64,000 bases of DNA from Crambe crambe (lineage: Eukaryota > Porifera > Demospongiae > Poecilosclerida > Crambeidae). The position numbers were made by a program, and so were the translations under genes. Under the pieces are notes generated by a model. It did no database searches, was not told where the DNA came from, and saw nothing but the letters and a program-made list of their open reading frames with translations. The DNA is taken from contig OZ004595.1 of the NCBI GenBank assembly GCA_963924555.1, forward strand, positions 6,318,599 to 6,382,598, in the 5' to 3' direction. Of the stretch, positions 4,480 through 13,774 are shown piece after piece; positions within the stretch are counted from its first letter, which is position 1; every line of letters starts with the position of its first letter.

Positions 4480-4570
4480 GCTTTCAGTAAAGGGTCGTCC
4501 AAAGATGTTTTGGTAAAGGATCGTCAGATTAGAGAACGCGTAATTTGAATCTGGTAAGGAACGTCCAAAA
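4480..4570. repeat. Dispersed repeat with GGTAAAGG cores
   Basis: Three copies of GTAAAGGGTCGTCC-like sequence are spaced about 25-40 bases apart upstream of the dehydratase gene. A similar three-core block occurs at about 21775-21865, suggesting a dispersed repeat family. Confidence 0.45.
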
Positions 4571-4645
4571 GAGTCCCTCTAGTATACTGTACTGCCGACC
4601 GGCCACGCACACAAATTCTCTCCTTGGCTATACCCCGACCTAAAA

Positions 4646-7600
4646 ATGGCTTCTGATTCTAAAAAGAGCAAGAAAACAGTAACAAAAGTAATAACTGCAG
4701 AAACTGAAAATTGCAGTTATGATAATTATGATTTGACCTTTGCCCCTCCCCTTTTTTAGTGGAGAAGTGGGACCCTCACAGGAGACCCCAAGGACGAGGC
4801 TCACTGGATCAAGAGGGTGAGTGAGAGGGTCCTCTATCACATCTCCCACTCCATATGATCTCATTTTCATATTACTTCCTGCAGTCTGCAGCTCGGGCTC
4901 ATCTCAGAGCTGCCGGATTTACAGACAAAGACTTCTCCAAACCGATCATCACCATAGCCTGTCCCTACAGTAATGCCCTCCCATGCAACAATCACTTCCA
5001 GTTAGTCACCCAGCTACTTAACTGAATGCATGAATGCAGGGAAATAAATTTAAGGGCTATTTCTAAATTTTGCTCATTATTAGAGAACTGGGGGAGATCA
5101 TTCGACTTGAAATTGAGAAGAAGGGAGGTAAGGAAAATTCTGTATCCCTGAAAAAAGTGAGCCATTTTTACAATTGATATCAGGTAAAGGGTTTATTTGT
5201 GGCACTCCTGTTGTTAGCGATTTGACAACAATGGTACGTTTAAAAATTTTTGTTATTATTTTAGGTAAGGGATTTATATGTGGGACTCCAGTGGTTAGTG
5301 ATGGAGAAACCATGGTAAGTATAGTCCTGTAGGTTTCTAAAGGAGGGCCTGAATAGAAATTTTGAAATCTTCATGTCAGTTGAGTCTCATCTCTCCTTTA
5401 GGGCTCCAATGGAATGCGCTACTCTCTTATCTCTCGTGATTGGGTTGCTGATTGTGTGGAGATAATGCATGAAGCATATAATGCTGTGAGTCACTTAACT
5501 GTCATCAATTCGAAACATTCCACCCATGTGATTATGTATCTGGTCATGTGACTGTGTAGGATGCAGTGATCGCTCTCGGAGGTTGTGACAAAACAGGTAT
5601 GTTACATGTACATGACATTATAACAGCATGTTATCATGCATGTAAATGGCTTCAGTTCCAGGTGTTGTCATGCCAATGGCCAGACTGAATGCTGTAAGAA
5701 TTGAACCAACAGAGGGTTAAATCATAAATCGTTGATCTTCGTTGCAGATTGGACTTTCCTTATATGGTGGTACCATTCTTCCCGGTTGCTACAAGAACAA
5801 GCAAGGAGAAGAGAAGTCGCTAGATGCTCAGAGCATTATGGAGGCCATAGGGTCATATGGCTCTGGATTGATGGACATAGAAGAATTGGGTGAGGTTGAG
5901 AGGTGTTCTCTGCCTGGATCTGGTTCCTGTGGTGAGTATCTATTGCAGCTGGCATTTCTACACTGGAGATGGAGATGGTCAAGGATATCATTCTTAGTGA
6001 TGTATTATTTCAGGTGGTATGTTCACTGCGAACACCATGTCTTCTGCTGTAGAGGCATTGGGAATGGCTTTACCTGGCAAGCATGCTGCACATTATGAAT
6101 CAACATTACTGCATCTTCCCACTAGGCACTGCCTCAGGAGCTGCTGTCACCCGTGACAACCAGCTCACCAGCAAGAAGAAACAGCAATGTGTAGCAGTGG
6201 TGGAGCAAGTCTTTGCTCTCTTGGAGAGCCAGATTCACACCAAGGAAATCATGACAAGAAAGGTGATCAAACTCCATCTCTTCTTCTCCATGTGAATTAA
6301 TACATGCCTACATGTACATAGGCTTTTGAGAATGCAATTACAGTTGTCATGGCATTGGGTGGTTCTACAAATAGTGTTCTTCATCTACTGGCACTTGCTA
6401 AGGAGTAAGCTGCATTTATTACAATCATAAAATTTTTAGTTTGTTTATTTGAATAGGGCTGGTGTTAATTTAAGAATCGAAGACTTTAATACTATCGGAG
6501 GTCGTGTACCATTGATAGCTAACCTCAAGCCACATGGCAAAGTATAAACTACGTGCCATTCACACTCTCTCCTTTATTGCTCAATATTTTTCAGTACCAC
6601 ATGGCTGACCTGGATGCCATAGGAGGAATTCCAGTGAGTACATCCTTCTGCTGTGACTCAACACTTAATTGAATCTCTTGATGACGTGTAGATAGTGATG
6701 AAGGAGCTGTTGAGTGCTGGATATCTCCATGGAGACTGCCTCACTGTGACTGGTCGTACTGTGGCAGAAAATCTCCAGGAAATCCCAGCCCTTGCTGACT
6801 TACCCAAACAGGTACACAATTAGGCCACATGATGCTGAAATACAAAAATATTTTGTCTCTCCTCTCCATATAAGGACATCATTTTCCCCCTTGCTGAGGC
6901 CTTGGCCCCTGCTGGTTGCCACATTAGTATCATAAAGGGCAGCCTGGCCTCTGACAGTGCTGTGTTGAAGCTGAGTGGAAAAACCATCAAACCCTTCACT
7001 GGTCCAGTGAGTCATAATGACAGGGGTATCAGTCTATTATGCTAATTTTTTGGCCCAAAAAGTTAATTATGCCTGTTTGACCACATTAGGCTCTAGCTTA
7101 ACGTTTGGAATATATTTGGTAACCCTTTGCCTATTATGCTAGGCCTGATGCTTGGGAGTACTGGCATAATAGGCTGGTCCCTAGTTCTCCTCCCCTCTGT
7201 ATAAGTTATATGATCCTTTATCACATACAGGCTATAGTGTTTGATGGTGAAGGTGCTGCTTACACAGCTGTCATGGAAGGACGCGTCAAACCAGGTCAGG
7301 TCATGGTCATCAGATATGAAGGCCCTCGGGGCAGGTAATGTACATGTATGTACATGTGCATGCATGCTGATCATATGACCATGACATGCAGTCCTGGGAT
7401 GCCGGAGATGTTGAGTCCAGGGGCAGCACTAGTGGGGGCTGGTCTCGGGAAGGAGGTGGCACTTGTGACAGATGGTCGGTTCAGCGGTGCCTCCCATGGG
7501 ATTATGATCGGTCATGTTAGCCCTGAGGCTTTCGATGGAGGCCCAATAGCTTTCGTCAAGGACGGAGACATGATCACTATTGATAATGTCAACAGACGAT

Positions 7601-7800
7601 TAGATTTGGTGAGGTGCAGAGTTTGTTAACTGATCTACTGTTACCCCCACATTTAATAGGATGTTAGCGTCGAGGAGCTGAACAAGCGTGCAAGAGCCTG
7701 GGAAATTCCAAAAGAGAAAGCGAGAGTCAAAGGTTTGCTAGCCAAGTACCGCCAACTTGTCTCCAGTGCTCACACCGGAGCTATAACCTTGCCAGAGTGA
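4646..7800 (+). CDS. ILVD: Dihydroxy-acid dehydratase (IlvD/Edd family), intron-rich
   Basis: Dihydroxy-acid dehydratase makes the 2-oxo acid precursors of valine and isoleucine using an iron-sulfur cluster and Mg2+. The start is ATG 4646 ([11 protein letters not shown]), and early exons are 4646-4678, 4760-4816, 4885-5000 and 5084-5127. Family hallmarks in order: [17 protein letters not shown] with the first cluster Cys; [35 protein letters not shown] with the conserved [31 protein letters not shown] with the third Cys; and [22 protein letters not shown] near the end. It ends LPE at TGA 7798-7800, about 590 residues, normal for the family. The arrangement resembles eukaryotic mitochondrial enzymes. 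No convincing targeting peptide is visible, although the Lys/Ser-rich start could act as one. Other sugar-acid dehydratases of the family remain possible. The numerous introns show that it is nuclear rather than bacterial contamination. Confidence 0.9.
5184..5233 (+). other. Alternative exon A of the dehydratase ([17 protein letters not shown])
   Basis: This 50-nt exon is flanked by acceptor TATCAG and donor GTACGT. It follows the phase-1 exon ending at 5127 and encodes [17 protein letters not shown]. It matches exon B at 5265 in length, phase and most of its sequence. It has Leu-Thr where exon B has the canonical Gly-Glu after VSD. Confidence 0.75.
5265..5314 (+). other. Alternative exon B of the dehydratase ([17 protein letters not shown])
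   Basis: This 50-nt exon is flanked by acceptor ATTTTAG and donor GTAAGT. It encodes the family-consensus segment with VSDGETM, continuing into GSNGMRYSL in the next exon. Only 31 nt (5234-5264) separate it from exon A. That is probably too short to be spliced as an intron, and including both exons (100 nt) would shift the frame. Confidence 0.8.
7129..7174. repeat. Hairpin-forming repeat in a dehydratase intron
   Basis: GCCTATTATGC at 7129-7139 and its exact complement GCATAATAGGC at 7164-7174 flank a 24-nt loop. A further TCTATTATGCTAA copy lies near 7033. It may be the remnant of an inverted-repeat element. Confidence 0.5.
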
Positions 7801-7924
7801 AGCTTTTAGGACAAAATTTCGTATTTCTAATTATTCGAATTTTTATAATAATTTTTAACGTGGCAACCCCGAAGAAGTGATGAAGTTCTTGTAGACTATG
7901 TAGAAATAGTTTAGGAGTAAAATA

Positions 7925-10900
7925 ATGAGTGAGCCGGAGAATCCAGTGGAGGAGGAGAGTGAGGTATCCGTTTCTCCGCCGCCTCCAGAGTCGCCCCCTC
8001 CACCACCTGAGTCTCCACCGCAGGAGTTGTCTGTCGACGAAGTAAGACAACCATTCCGACACACTTTACAGCTCTTTCAAGTACTATCTATTCCAATTAG
8101 ATGCGTAGGCGACGTTTGGAAAAGCTCTCTGGTCTTCCCCTGCGCTCTCGTTCAATACCGGCACAAACCACACCCACTCCCCCGCCCACCAAGACACTGC
8201 TTGCTGCATCTTCAAGCACAAGTGTACCTGATATCGTTTATACAGATGAAGTAATAATGGCTTCTAATCCAAAATCTTGTGATATTTTCTGTCACTACAG
8301 GTAGTAAGGATGGAAGTTGATTCTCCGAAGGGGCTGGGGGGAGGTGTGGTCACTCCAATAAAGACAGGAAGCAAGCGAACACACAGTGGAGAACTGGCAA
8401 GTTCCCCTCAGGGTAGGGCCCTCCCTTCACCGGACGAACCCAACAGCCTGCTTACTCTCATCAGTCAAATTTTCAAAGTGGCATTCACAGTAAGTGTATC
8501 ACTATTAATTTTACTGTCCTGAAGTAGCCATATGTGGACATTATTGGGACAGCCATTGTTGGAGGAAAAGCTTAAGTCCTGTGTTCTTTTATGGGCTAAA
8601 AACAATTAATCAGTCTATTTTTGTGCAGGAAAGTTTGGGAATTAACCCAGAAATGACAAGACTTCCTGAATTGACCAAAGCTTTCAGTAGCACTGGAGGA
8701 TCTTTGAAGCACAGAGATCTCATCTCACAAGCCATTCTGGAAAGGATTCTCATCTTCACTTTCCCGAGAGCAATGGAGGATGGGGCAGACCCTTCCAATG
8801 GATTCACTAATGAACTATTACCGGATAACATCACAACAACAGAAGAGTGGACAGGTGGGAGTGGTCCAAGCAGTCTCGGGAGTTTGAGTTTGTCTTTTCC
8901 CCAGCAAATGTCTTTGTCTAGTTCATCAGCTGGTGGATCAGGTAAATGGTGTTTCTGAATACAGTGGAACAATAGACAAGTTGGGGCCACTGAAATTGTC
9001 CTTTGTTGAGAGGTGTCCTAGTGGAACCTCCGAATAATAGACACTCTGTAAAAAAGGACAGCTCTCTGTACAGGACATTTGTGTTGCTGTCCCACCATCT
9101 CTGAATATTATGTATCCTTTACAGAGAGGTGTTCTTTATTTGGAGTGTCCATTATTCGGAGGTTCCACTGTAATTATGTTTTACTATTGTAGTTGATTGT
9201 ACTACCTCTTGTTCTGTGCAGTTGCTGGAACCCCACAGTCTAGCACCACACACCCCCGCTGTTCTGGAAAGGCAGGGGTGGGTGGGGCTGTCGCCTGGTT
9301 GGCGGACAGCTACGAGAGAGTCTCACAGGAGGAAAAATACAGCTCAAAGAAGATGGCTGGCCCAGAACGAAAAGCTGTGCTTTCTCTCTGCAAAAAGAGT
9401 TGCACTGCTCACTGTGCCCTCCTCCTCTCAGAGGTGGAGTATTTTGACTCCTCTCTTCCATCAGACTCTGAAATGTGAGGCCTGAAATTAATACCCCCCC
9501 CCCCCCCCCCCTCCCCCCAACTAAAAAATTCCTGCCATCATTATTGTCCTGACCTTTTTCATTGATCTCTAGTCCTTCTCCACTTCTTCCTTACCTGCTG
9601 GGAAATATCCATGGGTGTCGCTCCCTCCCTCCGGGCTTTCTCACAGATCTTCTCCTTCACTGCCATGACCAATCAACACAGGACGACAACCTTGTCCAAA
9701 AGGTGGGTGTCACCGTGTGGTTCTATGGGTGTGGTCCTTTAACTGGACATAATTTTCAGGTTTTCGAGGAGGTGTTGTATGGACTTCGAGAAACCACTTC
9801 CAAACTCTCTCTCATGGACGACAGAATTTGTGACAACTTTTTTGCCCTGGCAGAGTTGTGCGAGGTTTCTCCTGAGGGTTCAAAATTTCGTCCCTTCTGT
9901 AGCATGGTGGGTGTGCTGAGTAGTCACTATATAGTGGAGTTTATTTGTTTGTTTGTTTGTTTGTTTGTTTGTTTGTTTGTTTATTTGTTTGATTATTTTT
10001 AGTTGACTGCTGATAAGAGTTGGTTGCCGAATGACTCCTCATCGGGTCGAGGAGCTCAGCGAGACATGTTGCTCGGACCCTTTTTTTCTGTGTCTGGGTT
10101 GATGGAGGATTCGGCTGAAGTCAAGCGTCACTACATGTCCGGGGAAGTTGATCACCAGAGCCTGGCTACCATGCTCCAGCAAAGACTTAGCATCTGTAGG
10201 GTAAGGGGAAACAACCACATCATGATAGTGATAGAAAAGAATCTTTATCTTCTTGCAGCATGAACTGTATAAAATAACACATAGTGTTCTCAAGTGTCCA
10301 AGTACCCGTTCTGCTGAACTTGACTTCATTCAGAACTTCATTTCTGTCAACGCAAAGAAATCTCAGCTGCATGTAAGCCCCCTTAAGTTATTGCCAAGTC
10401 TAGCAGATAGACGATTCAAAGTATCCTTCTGGTTAAACTGGTTTGTCTACTGGTTAGACTGGTATGTCTACTGTTATGCAGGTGGAATCAAGGAAGTTTT
10501 CGTCTGATGCTACCCTGGTCAATCTCTTATCCGTTCTTCATCAACTCTCAGCCAAAGTTAAAGTTAAGACTGTATGTCCTGGCATGGCATGGCATGGCGT
10601 GATGTGGAATGTCAGACTGTGTTAATTGCATTAGTTGGTCTTCAAGTTTCCACCACTTTGGGATCCGAATAACATTCCCATGGTGCTACAATTTAATAAA
10701 TCATAGGACCTAATCTCTTTACAATTTAATCTGCCTCTCAGTCTCAAAGTAATTATGTGGCACATCCTTTATGGAATCTCAAAGTACTCTGTGTGTCTTC
10801 TTCATATTTTCCTGGAATGTATCACATTCTCTTTCGAGATAAGCCAAGCCCTACAATGTGTGGAGTGATATCCTATTTCATACCAGAATGATTACATACT

Positions 10901-13774
10901 TGGGATGTAGTCCAAGCCTTGATCAGAGTCTCTTGCCAGACACGTTATACATGCTTGTGGTATCACCTATCCCCTTAGTTCCCTACCCCTAGTCCCCCAC
11001 ACCTTCCCTTAGTTCCCACCTCTCCCTTTTTTTTATATTTGACTTGTATGATGTGTACAGGTGGATCCTCTGTATTTGCTCAGCTCATCATGCCGTCTCT
11101 CTCTCACACACGAAACACGCATCAAACTCTCCTCCAAGGAGTGCCAGAAGAACACCAAGCCCCTCCTTTCTCCTCCCAAGTTCCCCACTGAGTGCTTCTT
11201 GCTGACAGCCCACTGTTCCCACATCTGCTGGACCTCCCTAATCAGACGCCACCACTCCATCACCAGGGAAATCCGCTACTTCCACTCAGTTCTGGCCGGC
11301 ATGGAGGCTGAGAGAGCTCCTGAACCAGTCCGTGCATCATTCACTACACTATGTATGATTCTCATTTAGCTCTGATTCTCCATCCATGCATGCTTGCAGG
11401 CTATAAAGAAGATCAAGGATCGGATAAACCTGTGCCAGAAGCTACACAAGAATATGCTGGCTCTGATACTGGACCCTGACCTGCTACAGCAGAGCATGCA
11501 ATTCTACTGCTCTCTCTCTGAGTGGCTCATACTGCAAAGCACAGCCGGCCATGGGTGGGCATTATTTAGAGTAAAACATGGGATTATTATGAATCGTATG
11601 TGCCACACCCACATACTGCAGGATGACACTCCCACTGCCCAAACAGGTCCCCATACAGTTTGCAGCCATTCCAGAGTTCTGTGTGGAGTCCACTGCTGAC
11701 TTCATCTTGTTTTGCACAAGGTCAGTTTTATTGAGCTTTAGCCAATAATCTGAATTTTTACTCCTTTTATCGTCTTTTAGATTCAGTCCCATTATCCTTA
11801 ATGATCCGGGGTTCATCCACTTGGTGACCTTTATCCTCCTTGCTGTCTGCACACCATACTACTTCAATAACCCTTATCTACTCACCAAACTAATAGAGGT
11901 AAGTCCCTATTAATTAAGCATGTTATAACAGTATATTGTGTATAGGTTATCTTCATCATGACACCTGGTATCCAACCACGAGAACACGGATTACTGGACA
12001 TGTTCACTTCTCATCCTCTCACTCAACAACACCTGGTACCAGCACTCATGAAGGCATACATCGGTCAGGATATTGCATAATCTCATATAACTCTAATATA
12101 CATGTTTATGATATTCAGACTGTGAGGCTATGGGAGGCTCCAATGAGTTTTTCGACAAGTTCAGCGTACGATACCACGTTTCAGTCATCATCACACAACT
12201 GTGGCAACACCCTGCACATCATGCTGCCATGGTAACTGAAAGTGCCAACACGCAGGACAATTCAGACTTTATTCGATTCATTAACATGCTGATCAATGAT
12301 ACCACTTTTCTCCTGGACGAGAGTTTGGACGCTCTCAAGGCCATCCACGACACACAAGAGGCACAGAAGGACAAGGAAGCATGGAATAGTCAGCCAAAGG
12401 TCAGTCATAATGTCTACAGTGAAACCTCCGACACACTCTGAAAGAGGACAAACCTCTCAACAAAGGACAATCTAAAAGTACCTTTGCTCTAAAAGAGGAC
12501 AACCTCTCTACAAAGGACAAAAGACTATTCAGAGGTTGTATGTATGTGAGAATGAATATTGGGCCTATATGAAATAAATGATAGTTCAAACATTTTTATG
12601 ACTTTCTTTCTACATTCTTGGGATGAGATAGCTGGCAGTGAGTTGCAGGGCTTTTGGCAGCTGGTAGTGCAACCTGGGGTCTTGTGGTATTTGAGTATCG
12701 AGCTGATGCATCTCACAGATGAAAGTTGTGTTAACCAGTTTGTAGTGGTTAACTGGCTCACACACTATTAGCACAGGGGGTACTCACATAGTTACAAATA
12801 TTCAAGAGTCACTAACACCACATTAACACATGGGAGTTGAGTGTGAAAGGAGTATCACATCTCTCTTACAGGAACTTCAGGAGTCTCGCCTGCACCAGTT
12901 AGCAGAAGATGAGAGGCAGTGTCGTTCTTACCTCACCCTGACTACTGAGACCCTATCCACCTTTCACTATTTGACAGCAGAGATCAAGGAACCTTTTCTC
13001 CGACCGGAAATGTCTTCCAGAGTGGCCATTATGCTCAATTTCAACCTCCAGCAGCTCTGTGGCTCAAAATGCAGAGACTTGAAGGTAAATCATGTGACAG
13101 TATGCATTATTTAGGGATCTAACCTGGAATTCGTCTAAATTTTGGCAGGTTCAAAATCCTGAAAAGTATGGGTTTGACCCTAAAGCTTTGCTGAGTCAGC
13201 TGATAGACATCTACCTGCATTTGAGTGGGGATGTGTTAGCAAGAGCTGTGGCTGAGGACCAGCGCTCTTACAAGAAGGAGCTCTTTGACACTTGCATCAG
13301 GCTTCTGGAGAAAAATAGCATCAAAGAACGGGTGAGCTGAATTCGTCAGATAAAGAGTGTCGTAAATTAACGTGATGTGTGTTAATTTTTAGGAAAGTGT
13401 GGAACGGTTTATTGAGTTTGCTCAACTGGTTGAGGGCCATGCTGTTGAATCCATGAAAGAAGACATCATTTATGGTATCATTCCTGACGAGTTCAAAGGT
13501 ATTTCAAACAGCCAGAGTGATATTTCGAATGGAGCATCATTATCCATTACTTCCTTGCTTAGATCCACTTATGGACACGTTAATGAGTGACCCAGTTAGA
13601 CTGCCAAGTGGTATGGTCATGGATCGACCCATCATTATGAGACATTTATTAAACTCGAATCAGGATCCATTCAACAGGCAGACACTTACACTGGATATGC
13701 TTGAATCACTTCCTGATTTGAAGCAGAGAATAGAAGAGTGGAAACAACATAAAGAACAGACTGGATCCATATGA
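7925..13774 (+). CDS. UBE4B: Ubiquitin conjugation factor E4 B (UBE4B/Ufd2), U-box ligase
   Basis: UBE4B/Ufd2 extends ubiquitin chains and works with the p97/Cdc48 machinery. The N terminus has acidic and proline-rich sequence, then [15 protein letters not shown], matching the vertebrate DEIRRRRLARL motif. Exons found by phase: 7925-8041, 8101-8250, 8301-8489, 8629-8941, 9222-9474, 9573-9702, 9760-9906, 10003-10200, 10259-10372, 10482-10571, 11061 to about 11350, then further exons to the end. The Ufd2 core includes [36 protein letters not shown] and [19 protein letters not shown], close to the human protein. The last exons encode the U-box, with [17 protein letters not shown] and [15 protein letters not shown], ending at TGA 13772-13774. 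The join near 11352-11400 is unresolved: the obvious donor there gives the wrong phase. The introns hold a MITE and simple repeats. Confidence 0.93.
8962..9170. mobile_element. 209-bp MITE-like element with TA target duplication
   Basis: It begins CAGTGGAAC and ends GTTCCACTG, which are exact inverted termini, and it is bounded by TA at 8960-8961 and 9171-9172. The right end read in reverse, CAGTGGAACCTCCGAATAAT, is repeated internally at about 9018. No coding capacity. It sits in a UBE4B intron. The TA duplication and small size fit a non-autonomous Tc1/mariner-type element. Confidence 0.75.
9494..9518. repeat. Poly-C tract in a UBE4B intron
   Basis: Eighteen C, one T, then six C. On the opposite strand this is a long G run. 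It lies between the exons ending at 9474 and starting at 9573. Confidence 0.9.
9940..9992. repeat. (GTTT)n microsatellite in a UBE4B intron
   Basis: About twelve tandem GTTT units with two TTAT interruptions. They lie immediately before the acceptor at 10001-10002, where they replace the usual polypyrimidine tract. Confidence 0.9.
12412..12540. repeat. Degraded relative of the 8962-9170 element
   Basis: The left end TACAGTGAAACCTCCGA resembles the terminus of the element at 8962. The interior repeats AAAGAGGACAA and CAAAGGACAA, and the right end AGAGGTTG has lost its terminal bases. It is intronic in UBE4B. Confidence 0.55.

Follow-up and report, generated by a model that had tools for sequence, protein, structure and literature searches.

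The analyzed window is a stretch of 64,000 nucleotides from the demosponge Crambe crambe (assembly GCA_963924555.1, contig OZ004595.1, positions 6,318,599 to 6,382,598), and window coordinates are used below unless a chromosome is named. A gene for a dihydroxy-acid dehydratase (DHAD) was found on the forward strand at positions 4646–7800. Read with the exon herein referred to as exon B, this gene has 19 coding exons and encodes 590 amino acids, and its spliced open reading frame contains no internal stop codons. The exon borders were placed by hand, using the sequence and the splice sites. The reading matches the family from approximately residue 31 onward in both profile and structure alignments; the least certain part of the model is the first exon with the start codon, which lies outside the homology cover. 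The assignment to the DHAD family, made in the initial annotation, is supported by profile scores above the cut-offs. Thus, the full-length match to TIGR00110 scores 628.0 bits for the B isoform and 624.1 bits for the isoform with exon A (cut-off 618.15), and the B isoform scores 699.6 on PRK00911 (cut-off 644). The solved structures with the best matches are likewise DHADs, of bacterial, fungal, and plant origin (6nte, 6ovt, 9ix7, 8ikz, and 5ym0). Among the matches listed for the 143-Mb genome, the locus is the sole gene of this kind (all 13 protein matches and all 3 PF00920 matches), and no second DHAD copy appears among them.

The other introns of the gene (n = 17, not counting the intron across exon A) are 49–224 nt long. 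One of them, intron 10 (6077–6125, 49 nt), has a GC donor (CTG/GCAAGC) in place of GT. No Rfam match was found within positions 4500–8000. The next downstream gene looks like a ubiquitin elongation factor, with an exon at 11061–11330 matching the Pfam family Ufd2P_core (PF10408, E 3e-13). The reverse strand carries a single open frame of 944 amino acids at 96–2930, which includes a 39-nt coding tandem repeat in three copies at 1909–2024.

Between exon 4 (5084–5127; donor GAG/GTAAGG, score 7.63) and exon 6 (5402–5485) of the DHAD gene, both common to the two isoforms, lie two alternative exons on the same strand. Exon A occupies positions 5184–5233 and exon B positions 5265–5314, separated by a spacer (5234–5264, GTACGT...TTTTAG) that comprises the donor of A and the acceptor of B. 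Re-reading the sequence reproduced the coordinates first given for the pair, the length of 50 nt for each exon, their common phase, the 31-nt gap, and the two encoded peptides. Both exons begin in phase 1 and end in phase 0, and the GT/AG sites of both are intact. The two sequences share 37 of 50 bases and differ at 13, with no indels, and 15 of the 17 encoded residues are the same. The two exchanged residues are adjacent: codons 14 and 15 are TTG ACA (Leu100, Thr101) in exon A, at 5222–5227, and GGA GAA (Gly100, Glu101) in exon B, at 5303–5308. A degenerate pattern covering a portion of the peptide common to A and B has two sites in the window, namely exons A and B, and none in 100 shuffles.

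The traits used as criteria for pairs of mutually exclusive exons, i.e., adjacency, similarity, length, and frame (PMC5740500), are all seen here: A and B are adjacent internal exons of similar sequence and length in a shared frame. A screen for tandem exons of equal length was carried out over 264 kb of chromosome, comprising the window and 200 kb adjoining it. On the forward strand it returned nine rows, eight of which are tandem repeats with 87–95% identity and the ninth the A/B pair; on the reverse strand it returned none. The reversed control gave five rows, including one diverged pair (73% identity in DNA, 65% in protein), and the complemented control gave two. Chance alone can therefore produce a diverged pair in a screen of this kind, and the case for A/B is based on homology to the family and not on the screen. 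Outside the window, at approximately C18 6160366–6162620, near-identical tandem exon-like repeats were observed, with DxNSNYMQYRDSQECLxAGI units about 162 nt apart, together with a 78-nt pair.

By path counting, 9 of the 13 differences between A and B are synonymous and the 4 non-synonymous ones all fall in codons 14 and 15; outside these codons, 8 of 8 differences are synonymous. Accordingly, pS is 0.76 (saturated) and pN is 0.10. The saturation of synonymous sites argues against both gene conversion and recent copying. In a simulation with 13 base differences (20,000 runs; copy A drifting neutrally, copy B accepting synonymous changes only), two or fewer amino-acid changes were obtained in 3 runs, and a stop codon appeared in 23% of runs. 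The coding score of exon A is 1.2 in its own frame and −8.57 and −9.41 in the others. Because few amino acids have changed despite synonymous saturation, long-standing conservation of exon A at the protein level is very probable, as is its translation.

For comparison of splice sites and intron lengths, a home-made gene model was trained on the same 264 kb; counts of donor-acceptor pairs over this region were too noisy to place an edge of intron length, and the model was used instead. It is a rough model that merges genes (31 genes, 758 introns), 7 of its 14 introns in the DHAD region agree with the manual ones, and its introns are predictions only. In total, 286 of the 758 introns passed a coding-support filter. 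Among the 164 supported introns of 45–200 nt, the acceptor of exon A ranks at the 18th percentile and its donor at the 7th, and those of exon B rank at the 89th and 71st percentiles, respectively. The gene model places B and not A. From the strong sites of B, the weak sites of A, and the choice made by the model we infer B as the default isoform, with A representing a minor or regulated variant. These same weak sites and the use of B alone by the model, as well as the closer agreement of B with the family at residue 100, would also suit a duplicate that is unused or nearly so, with all protein made from B. Such a history is unlikely, as it is hard to reconcile with the retention of 15 of 17 residues despite saturated synonymous divergence and with the lack of indels and stops and the intact splice dinucleotides in both exons.

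The supported introns (n = 286) include 12 shorter than 45 nt, 6 of 45–49 nt, and 80 of 50–69 nt. After an additional splice-site filter, 207 introns are left, the shortest being 27, 33, and 36 nt, followed by 47, 48, and 49 nt. The reversed control yielded 13 supported introns, none below 45 nt, and the complemented control 21, one of them below 45 nt. The apparent minimum for introns in this genome is therefore approximately 47–50 nt as modeled, and the 31-nt spacer apparently lies below it. Among 312 introns in ribosomal-protein genes of Amphimedon, the minimum length is 37 bp (PMC3412847). Steric exclusion is expected where the distance from donor to branch point is below about 50 nt (PMC5740500; PMC7969005); here the whole spacer measures 31 nt, the branch point of B being known only as a candidate motif. 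The tight spacing claimed earlier is thus borne out to the extent that 31 nt is under the length edge of an imperfect predictor. If A and B were instead joint cassette exons with the 31-nt intron spliced out, the three predicted introns with good sites below 47 nt (27, 33, and 36) could be cited as precedents, but the spacer is shorter than the lower edge of the predicted intron lengths and the joining shifts the frame to a stop; this arrangement is extremely unlikely.

Splicing of A to B leads to a frameshift and a TAA at 5463, and skipping of both exons leads to a TGA at 5437, both stops lying out of frame in exon 6. The composite of A, spacer, and B is 131 nt long, and retention of the spacer leaves its frame open, with no stop and 27 additional residues. 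The frame break that had been predicted for joint inclusion is thus correct for the spliced product but does not occur when the spacer is retained, so the frame alone fails to remove every product containing A and B. Non-functional combined inclusion, a trait of many exclusive pairs but not all, is accordingly seen for spliced joining, whereas the form with the retained spacer stays in frame.

Frequent retention of the spacer, making A, spacer, and B a single 131-nt exon, would agree with this open frame and with the prevalence of intron retention in the alternative splicing of Amphimedon (PMC4432959). The composite also scores 688.2 on PRK00911, above the cut-off of 644, but its score of 611.8 on TIGR00110 is under the cut-off of 618.15, its profile match is split into two stretches, and the metal-ligand segment would be duplicated. 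The coding score of the spacer is −3.14, which is weak evidence because 7 of the 19 real DHAD exons also have negative scores. On this modest evidence the composite protein looks non-functional, and regular use of the composite exon seems very improbable.

A candidate branch point for exon B was found within exon A. The sequence TTGAC (5222–5226) is the sole yTnAy motif in the 70 nt before the acceptor of B, lies about 40 nt from this acceptor, and arises from the two altered codons of exon A, TTG ACA. If it is used, the branch-point complex of B would adjoin the donor of A, as with the distant branch points of OGDH. Of 184 predicted introns, 119 carry such a motif at 14–50 nt, and the set yielded no clear consensus for the branch point; because a third of these introns have no yTnAy at that distance, TTGAC is a lead only. 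Exon A might accordingly have been kept partly as a splicing element, its Leu-Thr codons reflecting a role in RNA and not in the enzyme. The position and uniqueness of the motif and its origin in the altered codons fit such a role, as does the precedent of OGDH, where a branch point near the upstream donor is the mechanism (PMC7969005). The counts in predicted introns, however, show that the motif may well be unused, and amino-acid conservation across the rest of exon A would be left unexplained. As a replacement for an enzymatic role we give this little credence, though a splicing-element role of exon A can be compatible with mutual exclusion. RNA pairing as a means of steering the choice between A and B was considered and rejected: the best duplex between spacer and intron (−8.7 kcal/mol, P = 0.12) and the folding of the whole region (z = 0.22) are no better than those of shuffled sequences.

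Residues of the active site were located by alignment with AthDHAD, which is ungapped to query residue 136, so that sponge residue N corresponds to Ath N−1. The metal and Fe-S ligands are C67 (C66 in AthDHAD), D99 (D98), C140 (C139), D141 (D140), C217 (C211, after a five-residue gap), and E477 (E463), and K142 and S503 were located through the CDK and SGxx motifs. All residues checked for IlvD, i.e., three Fe-S cysteines, the Mg ligands, the CDK lysine, and the catalytic serine, are present. The five solved DHADs and the sponge protein have in common a match over the full length, the three Fe-S cysteines, D99, D141, E477, and the serine of the FSG motif. The sponge protein differs from them in having Glu or Thr and not Ile at residue 101 and FSGAS instead of FSGGT or FSGGS, and also in that KARI was not found in its genome.

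Asp99 is encoded in both exons and is followed by Gly-Glu in B and by Leu-Thr in A. In AthDHAD, the ligands include the equivalent Mg ligand Asp98, and residues 99–102 belong to the substrate-channel loop (PMC11528067). Replacement of the equivalent Asp by Ala leaves 0.04% and 0.23% of activity in two DHADs, and neither of the positions swapped here, 100 and 101, is mutated in the table that gives these values (PMC9314677). As the swapped residues directly follow the Mg2+-binding Asp99 in a loop lining the substrate channel, the two isoforms probably differ in substrate preference or activity.

Conservation at these positions was evaluated in the best 80 of 182 bacterial relatives from one scan (47–52% identity), a narrow sample that cannot represent the whole family. 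These relatives are mostly actinobacterial, many labelled Acidimicrobiia, with four flavobacteria and two records labelled Acidobacteria. All 80 have Asp at residue 99 and Ile at residue 101; at residue 100, 77 carry Gly and 3 carry Ala. Ile101 was also found in all five structure alignments listed, and both plant rows among them have Ala100. The replacement of a family-conserved Gly by Leu in exon A, as initially described, therefore holds for residue 100 in 77 of the 80 relatives, but Ala takes this place in three relatives and the two plant rows, and residue 101 changes as well, from Glu to Thr. Exon B is itself unusual, having Glu101 where 80 of 80 of the best relatives have Ile. Overall, the sponge protein departs from these 80 sequences at 55 of 236 columns with at least 95% conservation, FSGAS in place of FSGGT being one example. 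The pattern D-x-x-T-M-G-x-x-G-M was searched in 395 genomes from the side of Bacteroidota, the phylum of a Flavivirga genome, giving two matches with no significant similarity to DHADs (best E 0.009 and 0.057), and in three other genomes, giving none. A search of viral contigs for a relative gave six pattern stretches, none of which qualified.

The valine/isoleucine route was assessed by the presence of KARI in the same genome. An exon-by-exon search returned no matches and no candidates for PF01450 and no matches and one candidate below the threshold for PF07991 (controls 14/14 in both cases). PanB, which might use what DHAD produces, was likewise not found in the genome (controls 11/14). Such a search could overlook a finely split gene, yet it recovered DHAD in the same manner. 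Because KARI was not found, the sponge DHAD probably does not serve valine/isoleucine synthesis and looks orphaned. Glycerate, threonate, and xylonate are substrates of some DHADs (PMC9314677, Table 2), which suggests that the substrate here is perhaps another 2,3-dihydroxy or sugar acid. The nearest bacterial relatives of the protein, taken as the best 80 of 182 in one scan, come mostly from actinobacteria and share about 50% identity with it. The gene may have been acquired by transfer or kept by old retention.

The A/B pair is real and probably functional. The likely explanation for it is an ancient tandem exon duplication in the sponge DHAD gene, with the two copies used as mutually exclusive exons. 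Exon 4 would join either B, by default and through its strong sites, or A; once chosen, A would be spliced past B to exon 6. Splicing from A to B would be blocked, because 31 nt would not accommodate the donor and branch-point complexes at once, and a rare message with A spliced to B would be frameshifted and terminated at 5463. Both isoforms would keep the metal and Fe-S ligands, with Gly-Glu or Leu-Thr after Asp99. From these features we infer that exon A is transcribed, that the exclusivity operates in vivo and is regulated, and that the isoforms differ biochemically. Two observations from elsewhere count against exclusivity. Similar adjacent exons are frequently not spliced exclusively (PMC5740500). 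Exon skipping is also rare in the transcriptome of the sponge Amphimedon, where it and intron retention account for 1.8% and 45% of alternative splicing events, respectively, and mutually exclusive exons do not figure among the classes listed (PMC4432959).

The steric class of mutually exclusive exons is already well known. By analogy, the closest functional parallel is the coq-2 gene of Caenorhabditis elegans, likewise encoding a metabolic enzyme, in which exons 6a and 6e have equal length (134 nt) and occupy the same place (PMC7434440). In coq-2, two residues near the substrates are switched, and the choice of isoform sets which quinone is made (PMC7434440). The coq-2 case was confirmed by RNA and by exon removal (PMC7434440), whereas the sponge pair is known from genome sequence alone. 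The sponge pair also differs in belonging to another enzyme and another animal, in its shorter exons, and in the placement of the swapped residues, which are adjacent and follow a metal ligand. A second parallel is provided by exons 4a and 4b of vertebrate OGDH, also a metabolic enzyme with an ancient exon duplication, where exclusivity is enforced by branch points too near the donor of the upstream exon (PMC7969005). The intervening intron of OGDH is 118–131 nt long in birds and mammals, compared with 31 nt in the sponge, and its branch points have been mapped (PMC7969005), whereas the sponge pair shows a candidate motif only. No earlier report of the A/B pair or of a sponge DHAD was found among the titles and abstract openings covered, a scope that leaves out most subscription journals, and no sponge case is reported in the available part of PMC5896119.

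If confirmed by transcripts, the pair would be a clear case of splicing that retunes an enzyme active site in a sponge. It would belong to an animal group with very little exon skipping in one transcriptome study (PMC4432959) and would inform the question of when regulated exclusive splicing first appeared. It would also give a handle on the role of DHAD in an animal in which the preceding valine/isoleucine enzyme was not found, and the swap of two residues is small enough for a test by expression of both isoforms. A more far-reaching scenario, which we put forward only tentatively, is that the substrate of an orphan DHAD is switched by sterically exclusive splicing of two active-site residues, in a manner like that of coq-2 and arisen independently in a non-bilaterian, with one exon bearing the branch point of the other.

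The initial annotation described the gene as an animal one, which is consistent with the Wnt and silicatein-like genes present in the same genome. In total, 14 Wnt matches were found in the genome (controls 0/14), several of them near DHAD at C18:6.39 Mb; they form a cluster on the minus strand at approximately C18 6.389–6.396 Mb, just downstream of the window. Silicatein is a marker of demosponges, and the silicatein-like genes point to a sponge as the host. A silicatein-like motif has six exact matches at C15 872855–884857, and the reversed-pattern control has none. These matches form three divergent pairs repeated approximately every 5 kb, an arrangement that may reflect either true gene copies or a repeat in the assembly. 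Translation of two of these six loci gave, in both, CGASYAF followed by L-S-x-Q-N-I-I-D-C-S-G.
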